From: Streptomyces fagopyri | GTDB taxonomy: Bacteria > Actinomycetota > Actinomycetes > Streptomycetales > Streptomycetaceae | DNA length: 64,000 nucleotides | Direction: 5' to 3' | Assembly (NCBI RefSeq): GCF_009498275.1 | Contig: NZ_CP045643.1 | Location: forward strand, 2,480,001-2,544,000 | Shown: piece by piece, positions 10,104 to 43,787 of the stretch | Layout: every line of letters begins with the position of its first letter | Position numbering within the stretch: the stretch's first letter is position 1 | Notes under the pieces: generated by a model | Databases searched by the model: none | The model's input: the letters and a program-made list of their open reading frames with translations, nothing else | Told to the model about the DNA's origin: nothing | Program-made: the position numbers and the translations under genes

Positions 10104-11050
10104 CGACCGCAGCCACTGTGTCCGAGGCAACCGGCGGCTCGGGGGACGCAGGCCCGTACGCGCTGTCGCACCTGGACGCGCTGGAGTCCGAGGCGGTGCA
10201 CATCTTCCGCGAGGTCGCGGGCGAGTTCGAGCGGCCGGTGGTCCTCTTCTCGGGCGGCAAGGACTCCATCGTCATGCTCCACCTGGCGCTGAAGGCCTTC
10301 GCTCCCGCGGCCGTCCCCTTCTCCCTGCTGCACGTCGACACCGGGCACAACTTCCCGGAGGTCCTGGAGTACCGCGACCGCACGGTGGCCGCGCACGGCC
10401 TGCGCCTGCACGTCGCCTCCGTACAGGACTACATCGACCGCGGCGTCCTCAAGGAGCGTCCGGACGGCACCCGCAACCCCCTGCAGACCGTGCCGCTGAC
10501 CGAGAAGATCCAGTCGGAGCGCTTCGACGCCGTGTTCGGCGGCGGACGCCGCGACGAGGAGAAGGCCCGCGCCAAGGAACGCGTCTTCTCCCTGCGCGAC
10601 GAGTTCTCCCAGTGGGACCCGCGCCGCCAGCGTCCCGAGCTGTGGCAGCTCTACAACGGGCGCCACGCCCCCGGCGAGCACGTCCGCGTCTTCCCCCTCT
10701 CCAACTGGACCGAGCTCGACGTCTGGCAGTACATCGCCCGCGAGCACATCGAACTCCCCGGCATCTACTTCGCGCACGAGCGCGAGGTCTTCCGGCGCGC
10801 CGGTATGTGGCTGACCGCCGGCGAGTGGGGCGGTCCGAAGGCGAGCGAGACGGTCGAGAAGCGGCGGATCCGTTACCGCACCGTCGGCGACATGTCCTGC
10901 ACCGGCGCCGTCGACTCCGACGCGACCACGCTGGACGCCGTGATCGCCGAGATCGCCGCCTCCCGGCTCACCGAGCGGGGCGCCACCCGCGCCGACGACA
11001 AGATGTCGGAAGCCGCGATGGAAGACCGCAAGCGCGAGGGGTACTTCTAG
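10100..11050 (+). CDS. cysD: Sulfate adenylyltransferase small subunit CysD
   Basis: Protein of 316 residues, the catalytic subunit of ATP sulfurylase, which makes APS from ATP and sulfate. The PP-loop LFSGGKDSIVML is near residue 50, followed by LLHVDTGHNFPEVLEYRD. Other conserved blocks are FGGGRRDEEKARAKER and FPLSNWTELDVWQYI, and the C-terminal half keeps RYRTVGDMSCTGAV. It works as a heterodimer with the GTPase CysN encoded directly downstream. Its ATG overlaps the cysC stop and only two bases separate its stop from the cysN start, so all are translated from one message. Confidence 0.96.
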   Translation: MTTAATVSEATGGSGDAGPYALSHLDALESEAVHIFREVAGEFERPVVLFSGGKDSIVMLHLALKAFAPAAVPFSLLHVDTGHNFPEVLEYRDRTVAAHGLRLHVASVQDYIDRGVLKERPDGTRNPLQTVPLTEKIQSERFDAVFGGGRRDEEKARAKERVFSLRDEFSQWDPRRQRPELWQLYNGRHAPGEHVRVFPLSNWTELDVWQYIAREHIELPGIYFAHEREVFRRAGMWLTAGEWGGPKASETVEKRRIRYRTVGDMSCTGAVDSDATTLDAVIAEIAASRLTERGATRADDKMSEAAMEDRKREGYF

Positions 11051-11052
11051 TC

Positions 11053-12408
11053 ATGACGAGCGCCACCGAACCCGCCGAGCCCCTGTCGGTCGAGCAGTTG
11101 TCGGCGACCACACTGCTGCGCTTCGCCACCGCGGGCTCCGTCGACGACGGCAAGTCCACACTCGTGGGCCGTCTGCTGCACGACTCCAAGTCGGTCCTCA
11201 CCGACCAACTGGAGGCAGTGGAGCGGGTGTCGGCCGACCGCGGCCAGGACACCCCGGACCTCGCGCTGCTCACCGACGGCCTGCGCGCCGAACGGGAGCA
11301 GGGCATCACGATCGACGTGGCCTACCGCTACTTCGCCACCGCGCGCCGCCGGTTCATCCTGGCCGACACCCCGGGCCATGTGCAGTACACCCGGAACATG
11401 GTCACCGGCGCCTCGACCGCCGACCTTGCCGTCGTTCTGGTCGACGCCCGCAACGGCGTCATCGAGCAGACCCGGCGCCATGCCGCCGTCGCCGCGCTGC
11501 TGCGCGTCCCGCACGTCGTCCTCGCCGTCAACAAGATGGACCTCGTCGACTACCGGGAGTCCGTCTTCGCGGCGATCGCCGAGGAGTTCACGGCGTACGC
11601 CTCCGAGCTGGGCGTCCCCGAGATCACCGCGATCCCCATCTCGGCGCTCGCCGGTGACAACGTGGTGGAACCGTCCGCGAACATGGACTGGTACGGCGGC
11701 CGGACGGTCCTGGAACACCTGGAGACGGTGCCGGTCAGCCACGACCTGGCGCACTGCCACGCAAGGCTGCCCGTGCAGTACGTGATCCGCCCGCAGACCG
11801 CCGAGCACCCCGACTACCGGGGGTACGCCGGCCAGATCGCGGCCGGTACCTTCCGGGTCGGCGAGAGCGTGACCGTGCTGCCCTCCGGGCGCACCTCGAA
11901 GGTCGCCGGAATCGACCTGCTCGGCACGCCGGTCGACATCGCGTGGACCCCGCAGTCGGTGACCCTCCTGCTGGCGGACGACATCGACGTCTCACGCGGC
12001 GACCTGCTCGTGCCGAGCAAGGACGCGCCCCCGACGACGCAGGACGTCGAGGCCACCGTGTGCCACGTCGCGGACCAGCCGCTCACGGTCGGCCACCGGG
12101 TCCTGCTCAAGCACGGCACCCGCACGGTCAAGGCGATCGTCAAGGACATCCCGTCCCGGCTGACGCTGGACGACCTCTCGCTGCACCCCCACCCGGGCCG
12201 GCTCGCCGCCAACGACATCGGCCGCGTCAAGATCCGTACCGCCGAGCCGCTTCCGCTCGACTCGTACGCCGACTCCCGGCGCACCGGCGCGTTCATCCTG
12301 ATCGACCCCTCGGACGGCACCACGCTCACCGCGGGCATGGTCGGCGAGTCCTTCGCCGCGCCGCAGCCGGTCAAGGACGAGGGCGACGACGACGGGTGGG
12401 ACTTCTGA
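11053..12408 (+). CDS. cysN: Sulfate adenylyltransferase GTPase subunit CysN
   Basis: Protein of 451 residues, an elongation-factor-like GTPase whose GTP hydrolysis drives APS synthesis by CysD. G motifs are visible: AGSVDDGKSTLVGRLL (P-loop), EREQGITIDVAY (switch I), DTPGHVQY (G3) and VNKMDLVD (G4). Beta-barrel domains 2 and 3 follow, with KHGTRTVKAIVKDI typical of CysN. The protein ends in an acidic tail (DEGDDDGWDF), with no fused APS kinase domain. It is the last gene of the tightly overlapping cys set; the importer genes start about 270 bp further on. Confidence 0.96.
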   Translation: MTSATEPAEPLSVEQLSATTLLRFATAGSVDDGKSTLVGRLLHDSKSVLTDQLEAVERVSADRGQDTPDLALLTDGLRAEREQGITIDVAYRYFATARRRFILADTPGHVQYTRNMVTGASTADLAVVLVDARNGVIEQTRRHAAVAALLRVPHVVLAVNKMDLVDYRESVFAAIAEEFTAYASELGVPEITAIPISALAGDNVVEPSANMDWYGGRTVLEHLETVPVSHDLAHCHARLPVQYVIRPQTAEHPDYRGYAGQIAAGTFRVGESVTVLPSGRTSKVAGIDLLGTPVDIAWTPQSVTLLLADDIDVSRGDLLVPSKDAPPTTQDVEATVCHVADQPLTVGHRVLLKHGTRTVKAIVKDIPSRLTLDDLSLHPHPGRLAANDIGRVKIRTAEPLPLDSYADSRRTGAFILIDPSDGTTLTAGMVGESFAAPQPVKDEGDDDGWDF

Positions 12409-35008: not shown

Positions 35009-37435
35009 ATGACACCTGAGCGTCCCGAACGGGAGATCCCGGACTCGACGGTTCCCGCCGCGCCCACCGCAACGTACCGGCTCCAGCTGCAACCGGGGTT
35101 CCCCTTCTCCGCCGCCGAGGCCGCCGTGCCGTACCTGGCGTCGCTCGGCGTCTCCCATCTGCACCTGTCCCCCGTCCTGGAGGCCGTCCCGGGCTCGGCG
35201 CACGGCTACGACGTGGTCGACCACACCCGCGTACGGGAAGAACTGGGCGGCGAACCGGGGCTGCGCTCCCTGGCCCGCACGGCGCGCGCGCACGGGCTCG
35301 GGCTGGTCGTGGACATCGTGCCCAACCACATGGCCATGACCCCGCGCCACAACCACCCGCTGTGGGAGGTGCTGCGCGAGGGGCCCCAGTCGCCCTACGC
35401 GCGCTGGTTCGACATCGACTGGGACGCGCAGGGCGGGCGGCTGCTGCTGCCGGTGCTCGGCGGCCGCCTCGGCACGGAGATCGACCGGTTCGAGGTGGAC
35501 GGCGACGTACTGCGCTACCACGACCACGTGTTCCCGCTGCGCGAGGGCACGCGGGAGCTGCCGCTGCCACAGCTCCTGGACGCTCAGTGGTACCGCCCGG
35601 TCTGGTGGCGGCTGGCCCGCACCGAGTTGAACTACCGCCGGTTCTTCAGCATCTCGGAACTCGTCGGGGTGCGTGTCGAGGACCCGGAGGTGTTCGCCGC
35701 GACCCACGGCAAGATCCTGGAGCTGCTGGCCGACGGCGTGGTCGAGGGGCTGCGCGTCGACCATCCGGACGGCCTGGCGGACCCGGACGCGTATCTGCGC
35801 CGTCTGCACGAGGCGACCGGCGGACGCTGGACGGTCGTCGAGAAGATCCTCGCGGACGGCGAGCCGCTGCCCGCCGCCTGGCCGGTCGCGGGCACCACCG
35901 GCTACGACGCGCTGCGGCAGGTCGACGGCCTCTTCACGGACCCGGCGGGTGCGGATGAACTCCTCGTCCAGTACCGGCGGTTCGCGGCCCCGCGGGCCGA
36001 TCAGGGCGGCTCCTGGGAGGCGACGGTACGCCGCGCTGCGTACAAGGTGATCACACAGGAGCTGGCCACCGAGTTCGACCGCCTCACGCGGGTGGCGGAG
36101 CGCCTGTGCGCCCGCTCCCTCGACCCGGCCCTGCGCGACCACGCTCCCTGGGCCCTGGGTGCCGCGCTGCGCGAACTCCTCGTGCGGGTCGACGTCTACC
36201 GGCCGTATCCCTCCACGGACGCCTCCGCCGTCGTCACCGCGGAGGCCGCCGCCGAGGCCCGGGCGGTCTTCACCGTGCCGGAGGAGGCGCACGCCGTGGA
36301 CGTCGTACGGGACCTGGTCCTCGGGCGGGGCGGGGACGGACCTGAACACGCGGAGTTCCGGGCGCGGTTCGCCCAGACCTCCTCGGCCCTGCGGGCCAAG
36401 TCCGTCGAGGACACGGCGTTCTACCGCTACGTACCCCTGCTGTCGGCCAACGAGGTGGGCGGCGACCCGGGGGCTCCGGCCGTTTCCCCCGAGGACTTCC
36501 ACGCCTACTGCTCGCGCCTGCAACGCGACTGGCCCGGCACCGGAACGGCCCTGTCCACCCACGACACGAAACGCAGCGCGGACGTGCGCGCGGCCCTGTC
36601 CGTGCTCACCCAGTGCCCGCGCCGGTGGGGCGACCTCCTCGCCGAGGTCACGCCGGAGGGAGCGGCGGACGCGGCCGGCCGTCAGCTGGCGTGGGCGGCG
36701 TGGCAGACGGTGTTCGGGCTGGGCCCGGCCGACGCGGACCGCGTCCAGGGCGCGCTCCTGAAGCACGCCAGGGAGGCGGGCCTGCACACCGCCTGGACCG
36801 AGCAGGACCCCGCGTACGAGGCGGCGGTCGCGGAGTTCGTCGCGGCCGGCCCCTGCGGGGAACCCGGGAGGCGGGTGGCCGACTTCCGCGCGGGGCTCGC
36901 GCCGCACGTCCGGGCGAACGTCCTGGGGGCCGCCCTGGTGCAGCTGACCATGCCGGGGGTGCCGGACGTCTACCAGGGCACCGAGGACGAGTACCTGGCG
37001 CTGGTGGACCCGGACAACCGGAAGCCGTTCGTACCGCCGCGGCCTTCGGCGCGGGGTGACGGGGAGGTCTCCGAGAAGGCGGCACTCACCACAGCGGCGC
37101 TCCGGCTGCGCGGGCGGCGCCCCGACGTCTTCGGCGACAAGGCGTCGTACGCGCCGCTGACCGCGGCGGGTCCGGGTGCCGGACACTGCGTGGCGTTCGC
37201 GCGCTCCGGGGAGGTGGTCTCGGCGGTCACCCGGCTGTCGTCGCGGCTGTCGGACGAGGGCGGCTGGCGCGACACGCGTCTCGCGCTGCCCGTGGGGCGC
37301 TGGGTGGATCTGCTCACCCCGGGACGGGAGTTCACGGGCCACGCGCGCATGACGGAGCTCTTCGAGCGGTTGCCGGTGGCACTGCTGGAGCGCGTCGGCG
37401 AACGCGGTCCCGCGGACCACACGGCAGGCGGCTGA
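35009..37435 (+). CDS. treY: Maltooligosyl trehalose synthase TreY
   Basis: Protein of 808 residues, GH13 family, which turns the reducing end of a linear maltodextrin into a trehalosyl unit by an intramolecular transfer. Recognisable blocks are TYRLQLQPGFPFSAAE at the start, GSAHGYDVVDHTRV, LVVDIVPNHMA (region I), GLRVDHPDGLADPDAYL (nucleophile Asp, region II) and VVEKILADGEPLP (acid Glu, region III). The C-terminal half includes STHDTKRSADVRAALSVL and VPDVYQGTEDEYLALVDPDN, specific to TreY. Length is normal. Its partner TreZ is encoded about 4.6 kb downstream, with a peptidase and inhibitor block between them. Confidence 0.96.
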   Translation: MTPERPEREIPDSTVPAAPTATYRLQLQPGFPFSAAEAAVPYLASLGVSHLHLSPVLEAVPGSAHGYDVVDHTRVREELGGEPGLRSLARTARAHGLGLVVDIVPNHMAMTPRHNHPLWEVLREGPQSPYARWFDIDWDAQGGRLLLPVLGGRLGTEIDRFEVDGDVLRYHDHVFPLREGTRELPLPQLLDAQWYRPVWWRLARTELNYRRFFSISELVGVRVEDPEVFAATHGKILELLADGVVEGLRVDHPDGLADPDAYLRRLHEATGGRWTVVEKILADGEPLPAAWPVAGTTGYDALRQVDGLFTDPAGADELLVQYRRFAAPRADQGGSWEATVRRAAYKVITQELATEFDRLTRVAERLCARSLDPALRDHAPWALGAALRELLVRVDVYRPYPSTDASAVVTAEAAAEARAVFTVPEEAHAVDVVRDLVLGRGGDGPEHAEFRARFAQTSSALRAKSVEDTAFYRYVPLLSANEVGGDPGAPAVSPEDFHAYCSRLQRDWPGTGTALSTHDTKRSADVRAALSVLTQCPRRWGDLLAEVTPEGAADAAGRQLAWAAWQTVFGLGPADADRVQGALLKHAREAGLHTAWTEQDPAYEAAVAEFVAAGPCGEPGRRVADFRAGLAPHVRANVLGAALVQLTMPGVPDVYQGTEDEYLALVDPDNRKPFVPPRPSARGDGEVSEKAALTTAALRLRGRRPDVFGDKASYAPLTAAGPGAGHCVAFARSGEVVSAVTRLSSRLSDEGGWRDTRLALPVGRWVDLLTPGREFTGHARMTELFERLPVALLERVGERGPADHTAGG

Positions 37436-37865
37436 CCAGGCCTCCGCGGCGGACCGGGAACCCGGCGCCGGGGAGGCCGGACGGCCGGCGGGGCGCGCGG
37501 TCCACGGTCGCGTCTTCGCACGGTCCGCGCCGTCGCACGGTCCGCGCCGTGTCGCCGCGCACGGTCCGCGTCGCTTCGGCGCGCCCGGGTGTGGCGCCCG
37601 GTCGCCTCACCGGAGCCCCGTTCCGCGGCCCGCCGGACAGCCCCCGTACACCCGCACGGGTGACGCCGGAGGCCGGCCGCCGGGTCCCGGCAGTCGCGGG
37701 AGACCCACGGCCGCCCCGGCGGGACCTCCGTCTTTCGGCGGTGCGCGCGCCCGTCGCCGGCGGTGGACTCCACCCGGCGTCCCCGGGGGCTCCCCGCACT
37801 CTGCTTGACAGTTGTCCCCGTCCGTGGAGTACTGCGGAAGGCGACGCAGGGCGGACAAGTCGGGG
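37436..37865. other. Intergenic gap with short 17-bp repeats
   Basis: A 430-bp gap before the M14 peptidase. CCCGGCGCCGGG at 37461-37472 is a perfect palindrome. TCGCACGGTCCGCGCCG occurs twice in tandem (37516-37532 and 37533-37549) with a partial third copy near 37558-37570. No gene with credible codon use is visible. The peptidase promoter should lie in the right part. Confidence 0.6.
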
Positions 37866-39116
37866 GTGAGTCTCCTGCAGGAGCTGCGCTACCCCAGTGT
37901 GTCCGAAATCGTCGCGTCCGCACGGGCGTTGGCGGCCCACCGGCCTGGCCTGAGCACGCTCAGACAGATCGGGGTCTCCCGCGCGGGCCGGCCGCTCCAC
38001 CTGCTGTCCGTCGGTCACGCACAGCGCGCGGTCCTGGTCGTCGCGGGGGCTCACGCCAACGAACCCGCCGGTGGTTCGACGCTGCTGTCCCTGGCCGAAC
38101 GCGTGCTGTACGACGTGGAGTTACGGACCGACACCTCGTGGCACTTCCTGCTCTGCGCGGACCCGGACGGGGCGAGCCTGCATGTGACACCGGCGCCGCG
38201 CACCCTGCTCGACTACCACCTCGGTTTCTTCCGTCCGGCCGGACCCGAGCAGCCGGAGTGGTCGCCGTCCGTACTGCCGCCGGACCGGCTGCCGCCGGAG
38301 ACCCGCGCCCTCACCCGGGTCATCGACGAGCTGCGTCCCTACCTCCAGGCGACCCTGCACGGCACCGATCTCGGCGGCAGCTGGGTGCAGTTGACCAAGG
38401 ACATCCCGGGGCTCGCCGAGCCGTTCGCCAAGTCCGCGGCGGAGCTGCACATCCCGGTGGAGACGGGCGCGTCGGACGCCGCGGGCTGGCCGGCCTCCGG
38501 GCCCGGGGTGCATGTGATGCCGGCCCCCGGCTCGGACGCGGCCTATCCGAGCATGCCCGACGACGCGCGGCACAGCACCTGGTACCACGCGCACCGGTAC
38601 GGAGGTCTGACCGCGGTCGTGGAGGTCCCGATGTGGGCCAGCGATCTGGTGGGCGACCCCGCGCAGCATCCGGCGCCGGCCGCGGCGATGCGGGGTCTGG
38701 CCCGCCGGCTGCGGCTGGACGCGCGGCAGGTGGAGACGGTGCTGACGGAGGTCGTGCCGCGGCTGCCCGGCCCCGACGGACCGCTCCTGCGTGCCGCGAA
38801 ATGGGCGCTGGAGCTGGTGCCGGGGCTGGCCGACGACTGGGTCCGTACGCCGCCGGCGGACACCACGAAGGCGTACGTCGGCAGTGTGGACGCGTTCGGG
38901 CGCCGGCTGCCGCTCAGGGCCGCCGCGATGCTGCTGCGCGTCCTCCAGGAGGCCGACGACCGGGCGGCGCCGCGCCTCGAACGTCTCGTCGCGTCCTGGA
39001 GCGACGCCTTCGCCGAACACTTCGGCGCCCGCTGGGTCCCCCTGGAGCACCAGGTCGAGCACCAGTCCCGCACGGTGGTCGCGGCGGCCCTGCACGCACG
39101 CGACAACGCGGCCTGA
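37866..39116 (+). CDS. M14-type zinc carboxypeptidase with TTA codon
   Basis: Protein of 416 residues of the M14 metallopeptidase family. Zinc ligands fit His63 and Glu66 (AGAHANEPAGG) and His165 (ATLHGTDLGG); Glu253 in VVEVPMW suits the catalytic base. There is no signal peptide, so it should be cytoplasmic or released otherwise. Leu86 is encoded by TTA at 38121-38123, a codon that in Streptomyces needs the bldA tRNA and is almost confined to developmental and secondary-metabolism genes. A close paralog faces it at 39657-41009. The GTG at 37866 is chosen by comparison with that paralog. Cell-wall peptides or small peptides are plausible substrates. Confidence 0.85.
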   Translation: MSLLQELRYPSVSEIVASARALAAHRPGLSTLRQIGVSRAGRPLHLLSVGHAQRAVLVVAGAHANEPAGGSTLLSLAERVLYDVELRTDTSWHFLLCADPDGASLHVTPAPRTLLDYHLGFFRPAGPEQPEWSPSVLPPDRLPPETRALTRVIDELRPYLQATLHGTDLGGSWVQLTKDIPGLAEPFAKSAAELHIPVETGASDAAGWPASGPGVHVMPAPGSDAAYPSMPDDARHSTWYHAHRYGGLTAVVEVPMWASDLVGDPAQHPAPAAAMRGLARRLRLDARQVETVLTEVVPRLPGPDGPLLRAAKWALELVPGLADDWVRTPPADTTKAYVGSVDAFGRRLPLRAAAMLLRVLQEADDRAAPRLERLVASWSDAFAEHFGARWVPLEHQVEHQSRTVVAAALHARDNAA

Positions 39117-39117
39117 G

Positions 39118-39660
39118 CTACTCCAGGTCGAACACCGCGCCCGTGGCGGCGCCCATCACGCAGGAGTTCGCGAAGGTGTGCGTGTAGGTGACCGGGCGGC
39201 CGTCCCACGCGCCGCGCGCGGCGGCGGTGACCGGTGCGTAGATCATGGGGCACAGGACACCCGGCGTGTCCGGGATCCGGCCGATGTCGCCCTCGGCGGC
39301 GGCGAGTTCCGCGCAGGCCCGTGCCGCGTGAGGGTGCCCCTGGGGCGGGTCGCAGAGCAGGAGGGCGCCGCGGGTGCCGGGAACGCCGGTACCGGTACCG
39401 GGGCTACCGATGCCGGTGCCGGTACCGGGGCTGACGGTGCCGGTGCCACCGATGCCGGTACCGGGGACGCCCTCCGTCCGGAAGGGTGCCCGCGAGGGTG
39501 GGAGGGCGGGCGGCGAGACCTCGCCCGGGGTGAGCGTGAGCTGGAGCCAGTTGCCGGGGACGGCCTGCTGGGACGTCGCCGGTGCCGGGGCCGCCGCGGT
39601 CGTGAGCAGAGCCGCCGCGACCGTCAGGGCGCCGCGCAGCGCTTCGGTGATTCTCGTCAT
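39118..39660 (-). CDS. Subtilisin-inhibitor (SSI) family protein with insertion
   Basis: Protein of 180 residues with a signal peptide (ALTVAAALLTTAAAPAPA). The C-terminal 80 residues match Streptomyces subtilisin inhibitor: LLLCDPPQGHPHAARACAE, then VLCPMIYAPV, where Met-Ile is the expected scissile bond (P1 Met as in classical SSI), and THTFANSCVMGA near the end; four Cys form the two usual disulfides. Between the first strand and the first Cys there is a run of PGTGTG-type repeats of about 30 residues absent from normal SSI (about 110 mature residues). The ATG at 39660 overlaps the stop of the M14 gene upstream (ATGA), so the two are coupled. Its end is 1 bp from the end of the other M14 gene. 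Confidence 0.85.
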   Translation of the reverse strand: MTRITEALRGALTVAAALLTTAAAPAPATSQQAVPGNWLQLTLTPGEVSPPALPPSRAPFRTEGVPGTGIGGTGTVSPGTGTGIGSPGTGTGVPGTRGALLLCDPPQGHPHAARACAELAAAEGDIGRIPDTPGVLCPMIYAPVTAAARGAWDGRPVTYTHTFANSCVMGAATGAVFDLE

Positions 39661-41009
39661 TCCCGGTGCATCGGCAGCGCGGCCTGTGGACTCCACCCCG
39701 TCTCACCCGAAGGGGAACCCACCGGTGCGTACCGCCCGGCGAGTTCGAACGCGGCGATCACCACGCGCGCCTGGTACTCGACCTGGCGCGCGACCGGGAT
39801 CCAGCGTGCCCCGCAGCCTTCGCGGTAGTCGGCGCACCAACCGTCGATCAGCCGGTCCAGTTCCGGCAGCGCCTCGCGCGGGTCGTGCCCGGAACCGGTG
39901 ACGAGCTGGTGCAGCAGGCCGGCCGTGCGCAGGGCGACCCGCCGCCCGGCGAGGCGCAGGGACATCAGCCGGGCGGTGCCCAGCGACGGCAGTGGCCGGG
40001 AGCCGGAGTCCCGCAGATCGGGGTCCCAGGAGTCCGCGAGGCCGGGGCCGACCAGTAAATAGTCGTCGACGGGCGCGAGGAGACGGGCCGCGTCCGGAGC
40101 GGTTCCGAGGCCGGGGCGCACGCGCCCGAGGATGCCTTCGAGGACGCGGGTGTCGTGGCGCAGCGTGTGACTGACGGAGCGCAGCACCGCGTCGGCGTCG
40201 GCGGGCCGGGTGGCGTCCTCCACGGCCGCCACGCCCCACATGGGTGCCTCGACGACCGCTGTGACGGTGCCGTGGCGGTGTGGATGGAACCAGGTGGACT
40301 CCACGGCGGCCTCGGTGATCGCGGCGGCCAGGTCCCCGCGGTGCGGCGGCGGGATGCGGTAGACGGCGGGCCCGAGGGCCGGCCAGTAGAGGGTGTCGTA
40401 CGGACCCAGCTCGCGCGGGATGCCGAGCCGGGCGGCGGTGTGGGCGACGCGCTGGGCGAGGCCGGGCAGCTCGCGGGTCAGCTCGACGAAGGCGCCGCCG
40501 ACGTCGACGCCGTGCAGGGAGCACTGGAAGAAGGGCCTCAGTTCGTCCTGGAGGTCGAGGAGGGCGCGGGTCTCGGGCAGCGTCACGCCGTCCGCGCCCT
40601 CGGGCAGCCACTCGGGCTGTTCGAGGAAGCCGGGGCGGAAGAAGTGCCGGAAGTAGCGGCCGAGGGTGTAGGGGCCGGACAGCCACGCCTGGTTGCGGCG
40701 GGAGCCGTCGGGGTCGAGGCAGAGCAGCAGGTTCCAGGTGGCGTCCGCGCCGTCGCGCAGCCGGGGGTCGGCGAGCACCCGTTCCGCGAGGCGGAGGACC
40801 GTGGCGCCGCCCACCGGTTCGTTGGCGTGCGGTCCGGCGACGACGAGGGCCTGGCGGCGGCCGTGCCCGACGGACAGGAGCCAGAGGGGTGTGCCGGCCC
40901 GGGACGTGCCCACGCGGCGCAACCGGGCGTCCGCCGGACGGCGGGCGACGAGCGCGGCGGCACGGGCGCCGAGTTCGTCCACGGTCGGGTAGCGGAGGAG
41001 TGGCGGCAG
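39657..41009 (-). CDS. M14-type zinc carboxypeptidase paralog with TTA codon
   Basis: Protein of 450 residues, a paralog of the protein at 37866-39116. Ligands correspond exactly: His61 and Glu64 (AGPHANEPVGG), His166 (CSLHGVDVGG) and Glu254 (VVEAPMWG). No signal peptide is visible. Leu318 is encoded by TTA (plus strand 40056-40058), so this gene too should need the bldA tRNA. The start is unusual: a perfect GGAGG lies six bases before a CTG at 41009, and starting there gives a head that aligns with the paralog (PPLLRYPTVDEL against LLQELRYPSVSEI); a GTG at 41024 has no good ribosome site. The stop overlaps the inhibitor start, so peptidase and inhibitor are made together. Confidence 0.85.
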   Translation of the reverse strand: MPPLLRYPTVDELGARAAALVARRPADARLRRVGTSRAGTPLWLLSVGHGRRQALVVAGPHANEPVGGATVLRLAERVLADPRLRDGADATWNLLLCLDPDGSRRNQAWLSGPYTLGRYFRHFFRPGFLEQPEWLPEGADGVTLPETRALLDLQDELRPFFQCSLHGVDVGGAFVELTRELPGLAQRVAHTAARLGIPRELGPYDTLYWPALGPAVYRIPPPHRGDLAAAITEAAVESTWFHPHRHGTVTAVVEAPMWGVAAVEDATRPADADAVLRSVSHTLRHDTRVLEGILGRVRPGLGTAPDAARLLAPVDDYLLVGPGLADSWDPDLRDSGSRPLPSLGTARLMSLRLAGRRVALRTAGLLHQLVTGSGHDPREALPELDRLIDGWCADYREGCGARWIPVARQVEYQARVVIAAFELAGRYAPVGSPSGETGWSPQAALPMHRE

Positions 41010-41049
41010 GGCGCACCTCCACACATATGGTGCCGTCGCTTCACCTGAT

Positions 41050-41296: not shown

Positions 41297-41848
41297 TCAG
41301 GTGGACGACAGCCGGAAGAGCATCCGTCCGAAACCGATCTGGTCGCCGTCCTGGACGACGGCGGCGCCGATCACCCGCCGTCCGTTGACCGTCGTCCCGT
41401 TGGTCGACCCCAGGTCACGCAGGACCCACAGGCCGCCCTGGCGGCTCAGCTCGGCATGGATCCGCGACACCGTCTCGTGGTTGAGCCGCAGCCCGCTCGC
41501 GGGGTCGCGGCCGATCCGCAGCGGGTAGCCGTTGCCCGGGTGCGGCAGCAGCAGCTTCGGAAGCCGCTCGGCCTGCCAGGCCCTGCGCACCCGTACGGTG
41601 AAGCCGGAGACCGCCTCGACGGTGCCGAACACCAGCTTCGACCAGCGGCCCTCGGTGGCCAGGTCGGCGGTGAGCACGGCGAGTTCGTCGGACCGGCGGG
41701 CGGAGAGCGCCAGTTCCATGCGGCGGACGAACGTGTCGTGCGAGAGACGTCCGAGAGCGACGCCGTCACGCAGGGCCTTGAGCGCCCGGTCGCGTTCCGC
41801 GTCGGACAACCGCGCGGGGTACGTGTGGAACTCGAAAGACGACGTCAC
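41297..41848 (-). CDS. DUF1707-FHA domain protein
   Basis: Protein of 183 residues. Residues 13-65 form a DUF1707 domain (LSDAERDRALKALRDGVALG, RLSHDTFVRRMELAL, RRSDELAVLTADL). A FHA domain follows from about residue 105: PLRIGRDPASGLRL, ETVSRIHAEL and RDLGSTNGTTVNG, which binds phosphothreonine peptides. Such proteins take part in Ser/Thr kinase signalling, often at the membrane or cell wall, though no membrane segment is present. It lies on the same strand as, and upstream of, the M14/inhibitor unit, separated by about 290 bp with possible operators. Its start diverges from treZ, about 190 bp apart. Confidence 0.9.
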   Translation of the reverse strand: MTSSFEFHTYPARLSDAERDRALKALRDGVALGRLSHDTFVRRMELALSARRSDELAVLTADLATEGRWSKLVFGTVEAVSGFTVRVRRAWQAERLPKLLLPHPGNGYPLRIGRDPASGLRLNHETVSRIHAELSRQGGLWVLRDLGSTNGTTVNGRRVIGAAVVQDGDQIGFGRMLFRLSST

Positions 41849-42041
41849 GCTGGTGATTGTCGGTCAGGAGGGGCGGGGTGTCCAGAAGACCCGGAAACGG
41901 CCGCCGCCACCGACACGTTCCCGCCGCGCGTCCATGACATGGCGAACGCGCGGCAAATGGGTGGAGAGGAGCGCGAATCGATCTCGTGTGCCGCACCATG
42001 GACGGGCTACGTCACGGAGAGCGGACAAGGGGGAACCGTCA

Positions 42042-43787
42042 GTGCGGTTCGAGGTGTGGGCACCGCAGGCCGACCGGGTGGCACTCCACCGCGAGGGCGC
42101 CACGAGCGCGCTGGAGCGCGATCCGGAGCGCGCCGGATGGTGGACGGGAGACGCGGAGGCGCGGGACGGGACGCGCTACGGGTTCGCGGTGGACGACGGC
42201 CCCGTACTGCCCGATCCGCGCTCGCGGCGGCAGCCGGACGGCCCCGACGGGCTGAGCGCGGTGGTCGTCCAGGAGCGGTACGACTGGCGCGCCGAGTGGG
42301 CCGGCCGTCCACTGCCGGGCGCGGTCCTGTACGAGCTGCACGTGGGGACGTACACCCCCGGGGGCACCCTGGACTCGGCCGCCGAGCGGCTCGGACATCT
42401 CGCGGAACTGGGCGTCACCCACGTCGAGTTGATGCCGCTGTGCCCGTTCCCCGGGCGGCACGGATGGGGCTACGAGGGTGTCTCGCCGTGGGCGGTGCAC
42501 GAGCCGTACGGCGGCCCCGAGGCGCTGAAGCGTTTCGTCGACCGGGCGCACGAGCTGGGCCTCGGCGTCGTCCTCGACGTGGTGCACAACCATCTCGGGC
42601 CGTCCGGGAACCACCTGCCGGCGTTCGGGCCGTACTTCACGGACACCCATCAGACGCCCTGGGGCTCCGCCGTGAACCTGGACGCGCCCGGTTCGGACGA
42701 GGTGCGGGCGTATCTCGTCGGCAGCGCGCTGGCGTGGCTGCGGGACTACCGGCTGGACGGGCTGCGGCTGGACGCGGTGCACGCGCTGCGCGACACCCGC
42801 GCGCTGCACTTCCTGGAGGAGCTGTCGACGGCCGTGGACACGCTCGCGGACGACCTGGGCCGGCCGCTCTTCCTGATCGCCGAGTCGGACCTGAACGACC
42901 CTCGGCTGATCTCCTCCCGCGAGGAGGGCGGTCTCGGGCTGCACGCCCAGTGGAACGACGACTTCCACCACGCGCTGCACGCCACGCTGACCGGTGAGGC
43001 GCAGGGCTACTACGCGGACTTCGCCGAAGCCCCGTTCACGGCTCTCGCCAAGACGCTGACGTCGGGTTTCTTCCACGACGGCACGTATTCGAGCTTCCGG
43101 GGGCGCCGCCACGGCCGCCCGCTCGACCGTACCCGGGTCCCGGCACACCGGCTGCTGGGCTACTCCCAGACCCACGACCAGATCGGCAACCGCGCCCAGG
43201 GGGACCGCCTTTCGGCGTCGCTCTCCCCCGGGCTGCTGGCCTGCGCGGCCGCGCTGACGCTCACCGGCCCCTTCACGCCGATGCTGTTCATGGGGGAGGA
43301 GTGGGCCGCGGGCACGCCCTGGCAGTTCTTCACCGACCACACCGACCCCGGGCTGGCGGATGCCGTACGACGGGGCAGGCGCCGGGAGTTCGCGGCGCAC
43401 GGCTGGGCCGAGGAGGACGTCCCCGACCCGCAGGACCCGGCGACACGGGAGCGTTCCTGTCTGGACTGGTCGGAGCCGCAGGAGGCGCTCCACGCGCGAA
43501 TGCTGGCCTGGTACCGCGACCTGATCGCCCTGCGCCGGAGTCACCCGGACCTCGCGGACCCCGATCTCGCCGCGGTCAGGATCGCCCACGACGAGGGGGC
43601 CCGCTGGCTCGCCCTGCGGCGCGGGGACGTCCGGGTGGCGGTGAACCTCGGCAAGGAGGCCGCCGGGATCCCGCTGGGCCTGAGCCGGGCGCGCGTGCTG
43701 GCCGCGTGGGAGCCGGTGCGGACGCCGGACGCCGACGGGCTGCTGAGCGTGCCCGGCAAGTCGTGCGTGGTGCTGACGCAGGCGTGA
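42042..43787 (+). CDS. treZ: Maltooligosyl trehalose trehalohydrolase TreZ
   Basis: Protein of 581 residues, GH13 family, which releases trehalose from the product of TreY. Visible blocks: FEVWAPQADRVALHRE (N-terminal domain), VLYELHVGTYTPGGTLD, VVLDVVHNHLGPSGNH (region I), GLRLDAVHALRD with nucleophile Asp (II), LIAESDLNDPRL with acid Glu (III) and YSQTHDQIGNRAQGDR (IV). The GTG at 42042 has AAGGGGGAA upstream. Complete and of normal size. GlgX, TreY and TreZ in one region give the whole glycogen-to-trehalose route, often tied to stress and spore maturation in Streptomyces. Confidence 0.96.
   Translation: MRFEVWAPQADRVALHREGATSALERDPERAGWWTGDAEARDGTRYGFAVDDGPVLPDPRSRRQPDGPDGLSAVVVQERYDWRAEWAGRPLPGAVLYELHVGTYTPGGTLDSAAERLGHLAELGVTHVELMPLCPFPGRHGWGYEGVSPWAVHEPYGGPEALKRFVDRAHELGLGVVLDVVHNHLGPSGNHLPAFGPYFTDTHQTPWGSAVNLDAPGSDEVRAYLVGSALAWLRDYRLDGLRLDAVHALRDTRALHFLEELSTAVDTLADDLGRPLFLIAESDLNDPRLISSREEGGLGLHAQWNDDFHHALHATLTGEAQGYYADFAEAPFTALAKTLTSGFFHDGTYSSFRGRRHGRPLDRTRVPAHRLLGYSQTHDQIGNRAQGDRLSASLSPGLLACAAALTLTGPFTPMLFMGEEWAAGTPWQFFTDHTDPGLADAVRRGRRREFAAHGWAEEDVPDPQDPATRERSCLDWSEPQEALHARMLAWYRDLIALRRSHPDLADPDLAAVRIAHDEGARWLALRRGDVRVAVNLGKEAAGIPLGLSRARVLAAWEPVRTPDADGLLSVPGKSCVVLTQA

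Follow-up and report, generated by a model that had tools for sequence, protein, structure and literature searches.

The M14 peptidase and inhibitor locus

The window analyzed here, a stretch of 64,000 nucleotides at positions 2,480,001–2,544,000 of the 8.88 Mb single-contig genome of Streptomyces fagopyri, contains two M14 metallopeptidase genes, called M14L (left) and M14R (right), with a gene for a protease inhibitor of the SSI family between them (Table 1). M14R and the inhibitor gene are co-directional, and M14L opposes both tail to tail, the inhibitor stop (39118–39120) and the M14L stop (39114–39116) being separated by the single base 39117. Each peptidase gene carries an in-frame TTA codon, Leu86 in M14L and Leu318 in M14R. 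The positions of both codons, the ATGA overlap of M14R with the inhibitor gene and the 1-bp gap had been reported in an initial annotation of this DNA and were confirmed by direct reading of the bases. The main finding is that the TTA codon of M14R and the overlap are both conserved among relatives, which suggests that a single developmental tRNA probably times the production of M14R and the inhibitor.

Table 1. Features of the peptidase/inhibitor locus and its flanks (positions in the window).
Feature	Position	Strand	Remarks
M14L, left M14 metallopeptidase gene, 416 aa, GTG start	37866..39116	+	PF00246; HxxE in 154/154 orthologs
TTA codon Leu86 of M14L, not conserved	38121..38123	+	TTA 9/154, TTG 97/154 orthologs
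SSI-family protease inhibitor gene, predicted secreted, 180 aa, P1 Met	39118..39660	-	PF00720
ATGA overlap, M14R stop / inhibitor start	39657..39660	-	bases read directly; 100 ATGA + 1 GTGA in 105 loci
M14R, right M14 metallopeptidase gene, 450 aa counted from CTG	39657..41009	-	PF00246
TTA codon Leu318 of M14R, position-conserved	40056..40058	-	32/54; 86/123 orthologs
TAT codon Tyr317 of M14R, co-conserved with TTA	40059..40061	-	TAT/CAT in 84/86 TTA rows, 7/37 others
CTG start codon of M14R	41007..41009	-	CTG in 118/122 distinct start regions
GGAGG ribosome-binding site of M14R, -11..-7	41016..41020	-	exact 108/122; within -14..-4 in 121/122
FHA/DUF1707 protein gene, upstream of M14R, same strand	41297..41848	-	conserved neighbour
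treY, flanking gene	35009..37435	+	TIGR02401; conserved flank
treZ, flanking gene	41532..43787	+	TIGR02402; conserved flank

The genus search covered 199 genomes, and M14L was matched in 109 of them at 1e-20. Set 1, an even sample of the genus chosen among the matches listed with more distant M14 paralogs left out, comprised 100 regions (90 M14L or sister-clade places and 10 with the inhibitor or M14R only). Set 2 consisted of the best 80 of 280 M14R loci in named genomes and is biased to close relatives. Fragments were removed from set 1 before counting (4 of 58 M14R and 3 of 92 M14L), and the combined sets, freed of identical sequences, gave 123 distinct M14R and 154 distinct M14L orthologs.

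Conservation of TTA318 in M14R

Codon 318 of M14R was TTA in 32 of the 54 orthologs of set 1 and in 86 of the 123 in the combined sets, and no other column of the 123-row alignment contained TTA. The 37 remaining rows had CTG (13), CTC (13), CTA (4) or a few other codons. Among 357 pairs of column and rare codon, TTA318 showed the highest occupancy, with 86 of the 117 rows that kept the residue (runner-up 61 of 121). In the compared parts of the 80 named loci, TTA was found in 63 of 80 M14R and 9 of 76 M14L open reading frame (ORF) pieces, and the neighbours SSI (0/69), treY (0/74), treZ (0/83 pieces), FHA (0/80) and treX (0/11) had none in 13,170 Leu codons.

In the genome of S. fagopyri itself, TTA made up 22 of 21,135 Leu codons (864 kb, window included; the gene calls used for such counts were crude). 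The same genome encodes a tRNA-Leu with the anticodon taa (region L325, 1501–1585), and the TTA codons lie in frame within real coding sequence, as expected of bldA/TTA-controlled genes. The claim of the initial annotation that no other real gene of the window has a TTA held as far as it was testable. The crude gene caller returned one further TTA, at 10873 in the ORF 10612–12408; it is probably upstream of the true gene start and outside the gene, because an EF-Tu-type domain starts about 80 codons later and the local G+C content at third codon positions is 0.56.

On an M14R tree built without column 318, TTA occurred to either side of the midpoint root as drawn, and eight changes were needed for the 54 rows; 15 changes at codon 318 were counted on the 123-row tree. 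Leu-codon models were fitted to 52 conserved Leu columns, and 400 simulations, with TTA assumed at the root and no selection, were run for each of the two best-fitting parameter sets among those simulated. These sets led us to expect 0.6 or 11 TTA tips of 123, and 0 of 400 simulations in each reached 86. We regard the conservation of TTA318 as probably due to selection, and the codon model alone is no proof of it.

Overlap of M14R and the inhibitor gene

The inhibitor gene was found downstream of M14R, on the same strand, in 105 of 123 distinct full-length M14R loci. In 101 of these 105 a start codon in the inhibitor frame overlapped the M14R stop (ATGA in 100, GTGA in one), which is the conserved stop/start overlap expected of a translationally coupled operon; in the other four, an inhibitor-frame start occurred within 60 bases. 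The overlapping codon is a possible start of the inhibitor, and the ATGA overlap noticed in the single strain is conserved.

The TTA codon of M14L and the M14L sister clade

Among the 154 M14L orthologs, codon 86 was TTA in 9, CTG in 33 and TTG, otherwise a minority Leu codon, in 97. TTA86 appeared in scattered rows and is one transition away from TTG; in this strain it is probably a recent TTG-to-TTA state. Selected control of M14L by TTA86 was rejected, as only these nine orthologs carry it.

A sister clade of M14L (14 loci as delimited) was 58–68% identical to M14L. Among the matches listed, 13 of its 14 loci had FHA and treZ homologs next to the peptidase gene, and the remaining one had treY. 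Neither M14R nor the inhibitor was found in the fetched regions of this clade. All 14 loci carried TTA, in a single column of the 13 aligned ones (the 14th, whose frame is broken, was left out of the alignment). This column is a third position, unrelated to TTA86 and TTA318, so that conserved TTA codons probably arose at least twice in the peptidase genes of this locus.

The initial annotation had argued that TTA codons placed independently in the two peptidase genes pointed to selected control, and that their absence from nearly all orthologs would speak against it. The positions are independent, and the codon of M14R is conserved far beyond chance and probably selected. The two codons are nevertheless unequal in weight, since that of M14L is absent from nearly all orthologs.

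The probable CTG start of M14R

Of 122 distinct start regions, 118 opened the M14R frame with CTG; GGAGG occupied precisely -11..-7 in 108 regions, and 121 had it within -14..-4. Conservation was low upstream and rose at GGAGG and CTG. Within 20 codons upstream, 26 of the 122 regions had no in-frame ATG, GTG or TTG before a stop, and 57 had one of these codons in frame five codons upstream. Residue 10, a Val, is encoded by GTC in the consensus, and this codon therefore offers no common start further downstream. The CTG alone is not decisive, as 9 of 53 M14R Leu columns (start included) were at least 95% CTG. The database lengths of M14R homologs scatter, mostly between 440 and 456 aa among the matches listed, as expected if annotation pipelines miss CTG. 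M14R probably uses a non-standard, conserved CUG start, and the start chosen in the initial annotation appears right.

Codon context of the conserved TTA codons

In the 86 rows with TTA318, the preceding codon 317 was TAT in 83 and CAT in one, and TAT occurred in 7 of the 37 other rows (Fisher p about 1e-19, not corrected for relatedness). At other Tyr columns of M14R, TAT was found in 0–2 of about 110–120 rows at seven and in 23 of 123 at residue 7. When independent branch pairs were compared, codons 317 and 318 typically changed together in 6 of 8 pairs and in opposite senses in none, two pairs being without change at 317 (median p 0.03, range 0.016–0.125). The Ser codon preceding the TTA of the M14L sister clade was TCT in 8 of 13 loci, TCC in 4 and TCG in 1; in the other rows of the same M14L column, TCT was 1 of 99 TCN codons.

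The adpA gene was taken as a control, with 30 loci fetched from 60 genomes that had a match. The classical site was present in 26, always as TCT-TTA-CCN, and the remaining loci had GGT-TTA-CTG (2), CAT-TTA-CAC (1) or no TTA (1). Hence, all adpA TTA codons counted here read NNT-TTA-C (29 of 30 loci; L231, L277–L306), including three at other sites of the gene. TTA codons judged to lie upstream of the start in extended frames (three loci; preceding codons GGC, ACG and CCC) were excluded. In 19 aligned adpA rows, TCT stood at all 18 classical sites, and the neighbouring codons varied.

Two further genes were matched to published conserved-TTA genes by family and approximate codon position only: a phosphotransferase gene (L333) with TGT-TTA-CTG, and an EAL-domain gene (L321) with GTG-TTA-CTG, which breaks the NNT rule. 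No gene matchable to a published conserved TTA was found among the DUF742 matches (13 of 13 fetched) and HATPase matches (30 of 93 fetched). None of 18 instances of scattered M14L TTA codons, at nine sites outside the sister-clade column, followed NNT, and other family members fetched among L327–L377 also carry TTA codons without it. For the other TTA codons of the S. fagopyri genome (M14 excluded), T preceded TTA in 5 of 20 and in 1 of 7 in a stricter subset, T-ending codons making up 5%. NNT before TTA was rejected as a general rule on the grounds of these 5 of 20 codons and the EAL-domain gene.

It is possible, if on balance doubtful, that the functional conserved TTA codons of Streptomyces are two-codon locks, in which a wobble-read NNU is followed by UUA and then C, and both codons are poorly decoded until late growth, tightening the bldA dependence. 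The NNU-UUA-C pattern was followed in M14R (UAU or CAU, 84/86), the M14L sister clade (UCU, 8/13), three adpA sites (UCU, GGU and CAU) and the phosphotransferase gene (UGU). In M14R, such a lock would be stacked on the conserved CUG start and on the overlap extending control to an inhibitor predicted to be secreted. If true, the rule would help to separate regulatory from incidental TTA codons. Silov and others reportedly published a paper on TTA codon context in 2021, so novelty of the context is not claimed here. According to the available part of one study, GAU codons, wobble-read without queuosine, are poorly translated in S. coelicolor until aerial growth (PMC9262613); the two-codon lock would extend this behaviour, by analogy, from GAU to UAU, UCU, GGU and UGU.

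Predicted location and target of the proteins

Both peptidases matched PF00246, the match in M14R being restricted to the N-terminal residues 19–107, and the inhibitor matched PF00720 with 82.7 bits (cut-off 23.9). The motifs HxxE, LHG.D and E.P, which we take to hold the M14 zinc ligands and the catalytic Glu, were present in 123, 123 and 119 of 123 M14R orthologs and in 154, 139 and 154 of 154 M14L orthologs, respectively. M14L also matched weakly the N-terminal part of MpaA, an M14 murein tripeptide amidase (NF007897), but with 23.5 bits against a cut-off of 157 it is not a member of that family.

By a crude test of hydropathy and an AxA motif, the N-terminus of the inhibitor was signal-like in 103 of 105 loci; the same test found no comparable hydrophobic stretch at the N-termini of M14L and M14R. 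The P1 residue of the inhibitor was Met in 93 of 105, Leu in 5, Glu in 4 and Gln in 3. The peptidases look cytoplasmic and the inhibitor looks secreted and of subtilisin type, so that it probably acts outside the cell on serine proteases and not on M14R or M14L. The idea of the initial annotation that it restrains these peptidases is thus unlikely.

A putative bldA-controlled coupled unit

We propose, with a probability of about 0.6, that M14R and the inhibitor gene form a translationally coupled unit under the control of the bldA tRNA, with TTA318 as the brake. Ribosomes would initiate M14R at CUG, helped by the strong GGAGG site, and would stall or drop off at UAU-UUA (317–318) as long as little charged tRNA-Leu(UAA) is available. 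With the AUG of the inhibitor overlapping the stop of M14R, re-initiation there would then be rare, and the inhibitor would be held back despite having no TTA of its own. In late growth, with the bldA tRNA available, M14R in the cytoplasm and the exported inhibitor would be made together, the latter acting outside on subtilisin-type proteases rather than on either peptidase; M14L is a convergent paralog, usually free of TTA. Stalling, failed re-initiation and release by the tRNA together give the simplest account of a conserved TTA combined with a conserved overlap. We infer the stalling, polarity and timing, as well as the location and target of the proteins, from the sequence features, their conservation and the presence of the UAA tRNA gene, which are themselves observed. 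AdpA-like boxes, scanned for with a consensus that we presume to be the right one, were present upstream of M14R in 2 of 80 loci and of M14L in 1 of 71. This gave no sign of direct AdpA control, which was rejected for both genes.

Several observations weigh against the proposal. TTA318 is missing from 37 of 123 M14R orthologs and lies late in the gene (codon 318 of 450), which is costly for a switch. It was present in 11 of the 18 M14R rows without an inhibitor beside them and absent from 30 of the 105 with one, and therefore control of the inhibitor may not be what selection acts on. In set 1, 18 loci keep the inhibitor and M14L without M14R, and four more have only an M14R remnant; a tblastn search revealed C-terminal M14R remnants adjoining the inhibitor gene in 6 of these 22 (L040, L044, L060, L077, L102 and L108). 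In the remnant loci M14R is lost while the inhibitor and M14L stay, and the inhibitor can therefore persist without M14R. The peptidase/inhibitor module of the initial annotation thus survives as a conserved coupling, looser than was imagined. Finally, the neutral-loss argument for TTA318 hinges on the choice of model: a worse-fitting Leu-codon model (f=0.25) led us to expect 69 TTA tips, with 22% of simulations reaching 86, and the first codon model, in which rare codons leave only slowly, about 119 without selection.

Among the other explanations, an unlikely one is that a nucleotide-level element and not the codon is conserved, the 15-mer GACTATTTACTGGTC, an imperfect palindrome, serving within M14R as a binding site for a protein or a site of RNA processing. 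In its favour, TAT and TTA are usually retained or lost jointly, and the CTG after TTA is also retained more often (84/86 TTA rows vs. 29/37 others). However, the exact 15-mer was listed at least 30 times in the 199 genomes, once in each of 30, and in the S. fagopyri genome once, with one more site at two mismatches, unlike the operator of a regulon; moreover, the M14L sister clade and adpA share only NNT-TTA-C, with varying flanks. A regulon operator was rejected on the single occurrence per genome among the matches listed; the 15-mer may still be a single-site operator.

Slightly less credible is that TTA318 is an ancestral codon lost slowly, without a regulatory role. The frequent changes (15 on the 123-row tree) and the high TTA retention predicted by the models with slowly leaving rare codons would suit it, but the fit of such models is poorer (lnL about -2380 and -2396 to -2399, vs. 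-2354), the compared parts of the neighbour genes in the same loci lack TTA, and the sister clade has a conserved TTA at a different position. It is improbable that the slow codon pair serves to pace the folding of M14R between its M14 domain and its C-terminal part, independently of bldA timing: codon 318 does lie far beyond the Pfam match, but other codons replace TTA in the 37 orthologs named above, and the sister-clade TTA sits elsewhere. Very improbable is a pair of peptidases timed by bldA and held in check by an inhibitor of its own, as originally annotated, for which the adjacency and coupling of the genes and the names of SSI-family proteins in the PDB (metalloprotease inhibitor, 6i0i; neutral proteinase inhibitor, 4hwx) would speak, since the left TTA is not conserved, only the inhibitor has a signal-like N-terminus and it outlives the loss of M14R.

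Relation to known TTA-containing genes

The proposed bldA-controlled unit resembles the pair SCO6638–SCO6637, in which, according to the available part of the source, SCO6638 has a TTA, its stop overlaps the SCO6637 start, and both products, that of the downstream gene included, are reduced or missing in a bldA mutant (PMC2000904). SCO6638 is described there as being of unknown function, whereas here the coupled gene encodes an SSI-type inhibitor predicted to be secreted and the overlap recurs in 101 of 105 loci. The same part of that paper links the secreted SSI/Sti inhibitor SCO0762 to bldA through AdpA (PMC2000904). The inhibitor of the present locus shares the family, the predicted secretion and the presumed bldA link, but its link would be translational coupling and not AdpA; SCO0762 probably belongs to another paralog clade, as genomes with a second SSI match mostly show it at about 40–50% identity to the locus inhibitor among the matches listed. 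Like adpA, M14R carries an in-frame TTA whose position is shared by most loci and falls in the later half of the gene, in the NNT-TTA-C context. The adpA product, however, is a regulator, and its gene was present in 60 of 61 genomes, whereas M14R encodes an accessory enzyme, and about 60–70% of its orthologs have the TTA.

A survey of 213 species reports 11 position-conserved TTA codons in Streptomyces, its screen having begun with orthogroups bearing TTA in at least half of the species (PMC10327506). M14R resembles that set in having TTA at the same site in half or more of its orthologs but, as far as the available part of the survey goes, none of the 11 lies in an M14 peptidase gene. M14R would probably not enter such a screen, as judged from that part, because full-length M14R was found in 54 of 101 fetched loci from 199 genomes. 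Table 2 of PMC4255298, which starts from S. coelicolor genes, has no M14 gene among its entries in the available part of the paper. Literature searches combining the TTA codon with M14 or carboxypeptidase, or subtilisin inhibitor with carboxypeptidase and operon, gave no title or abstract start on this locus among the matches listed. General background was also drawn from parts of PMC4932002, PMC3814723, PMC12772374 and PMC8994273.

Position-conserved TTA codons are few, 11 in the available part of the survey (PMC10327506), so that a further one points to a gene in which late timing is probably selected for. If our proposal is true, an intracellular peptidase and an extracellular protease inhibitor would depend on a single tRNA in genomes whose development goes along with protease cascades. 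The locus, with its natural variants lacking TTA, M14R or the inhibitor, offers a natural test of the passing of TTA timing to a coupled gene.

Flanking genes and minor observations

In the 80 named loci, M14R was flanked by treZ and FHA homologs; SSI pieces were found in 69, and M14L (76 pieces) and treY (74 pieces) in most. Species carrying the locus include S. avermitilis, S. canus and S. coeruleorubidus. A GlgX-type debranching gene is also among the flanks, besides TreY, TreZ and FHA/DUF1707. TreZ homology begins at residue 171 of the ORF 41532..43787, and the true treZ start thus lies downstream of 41532. In this strain, the inhibitor contains an additional Gly/Thr-rich stretch (39385–39466), encoded by a degenerate 27/21-base tandem repeat, and the inhibitor reading frames of many relatives are shorter. 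Short tandem repeats are also present in the intergenic region upstream of M14L (37503–37588).

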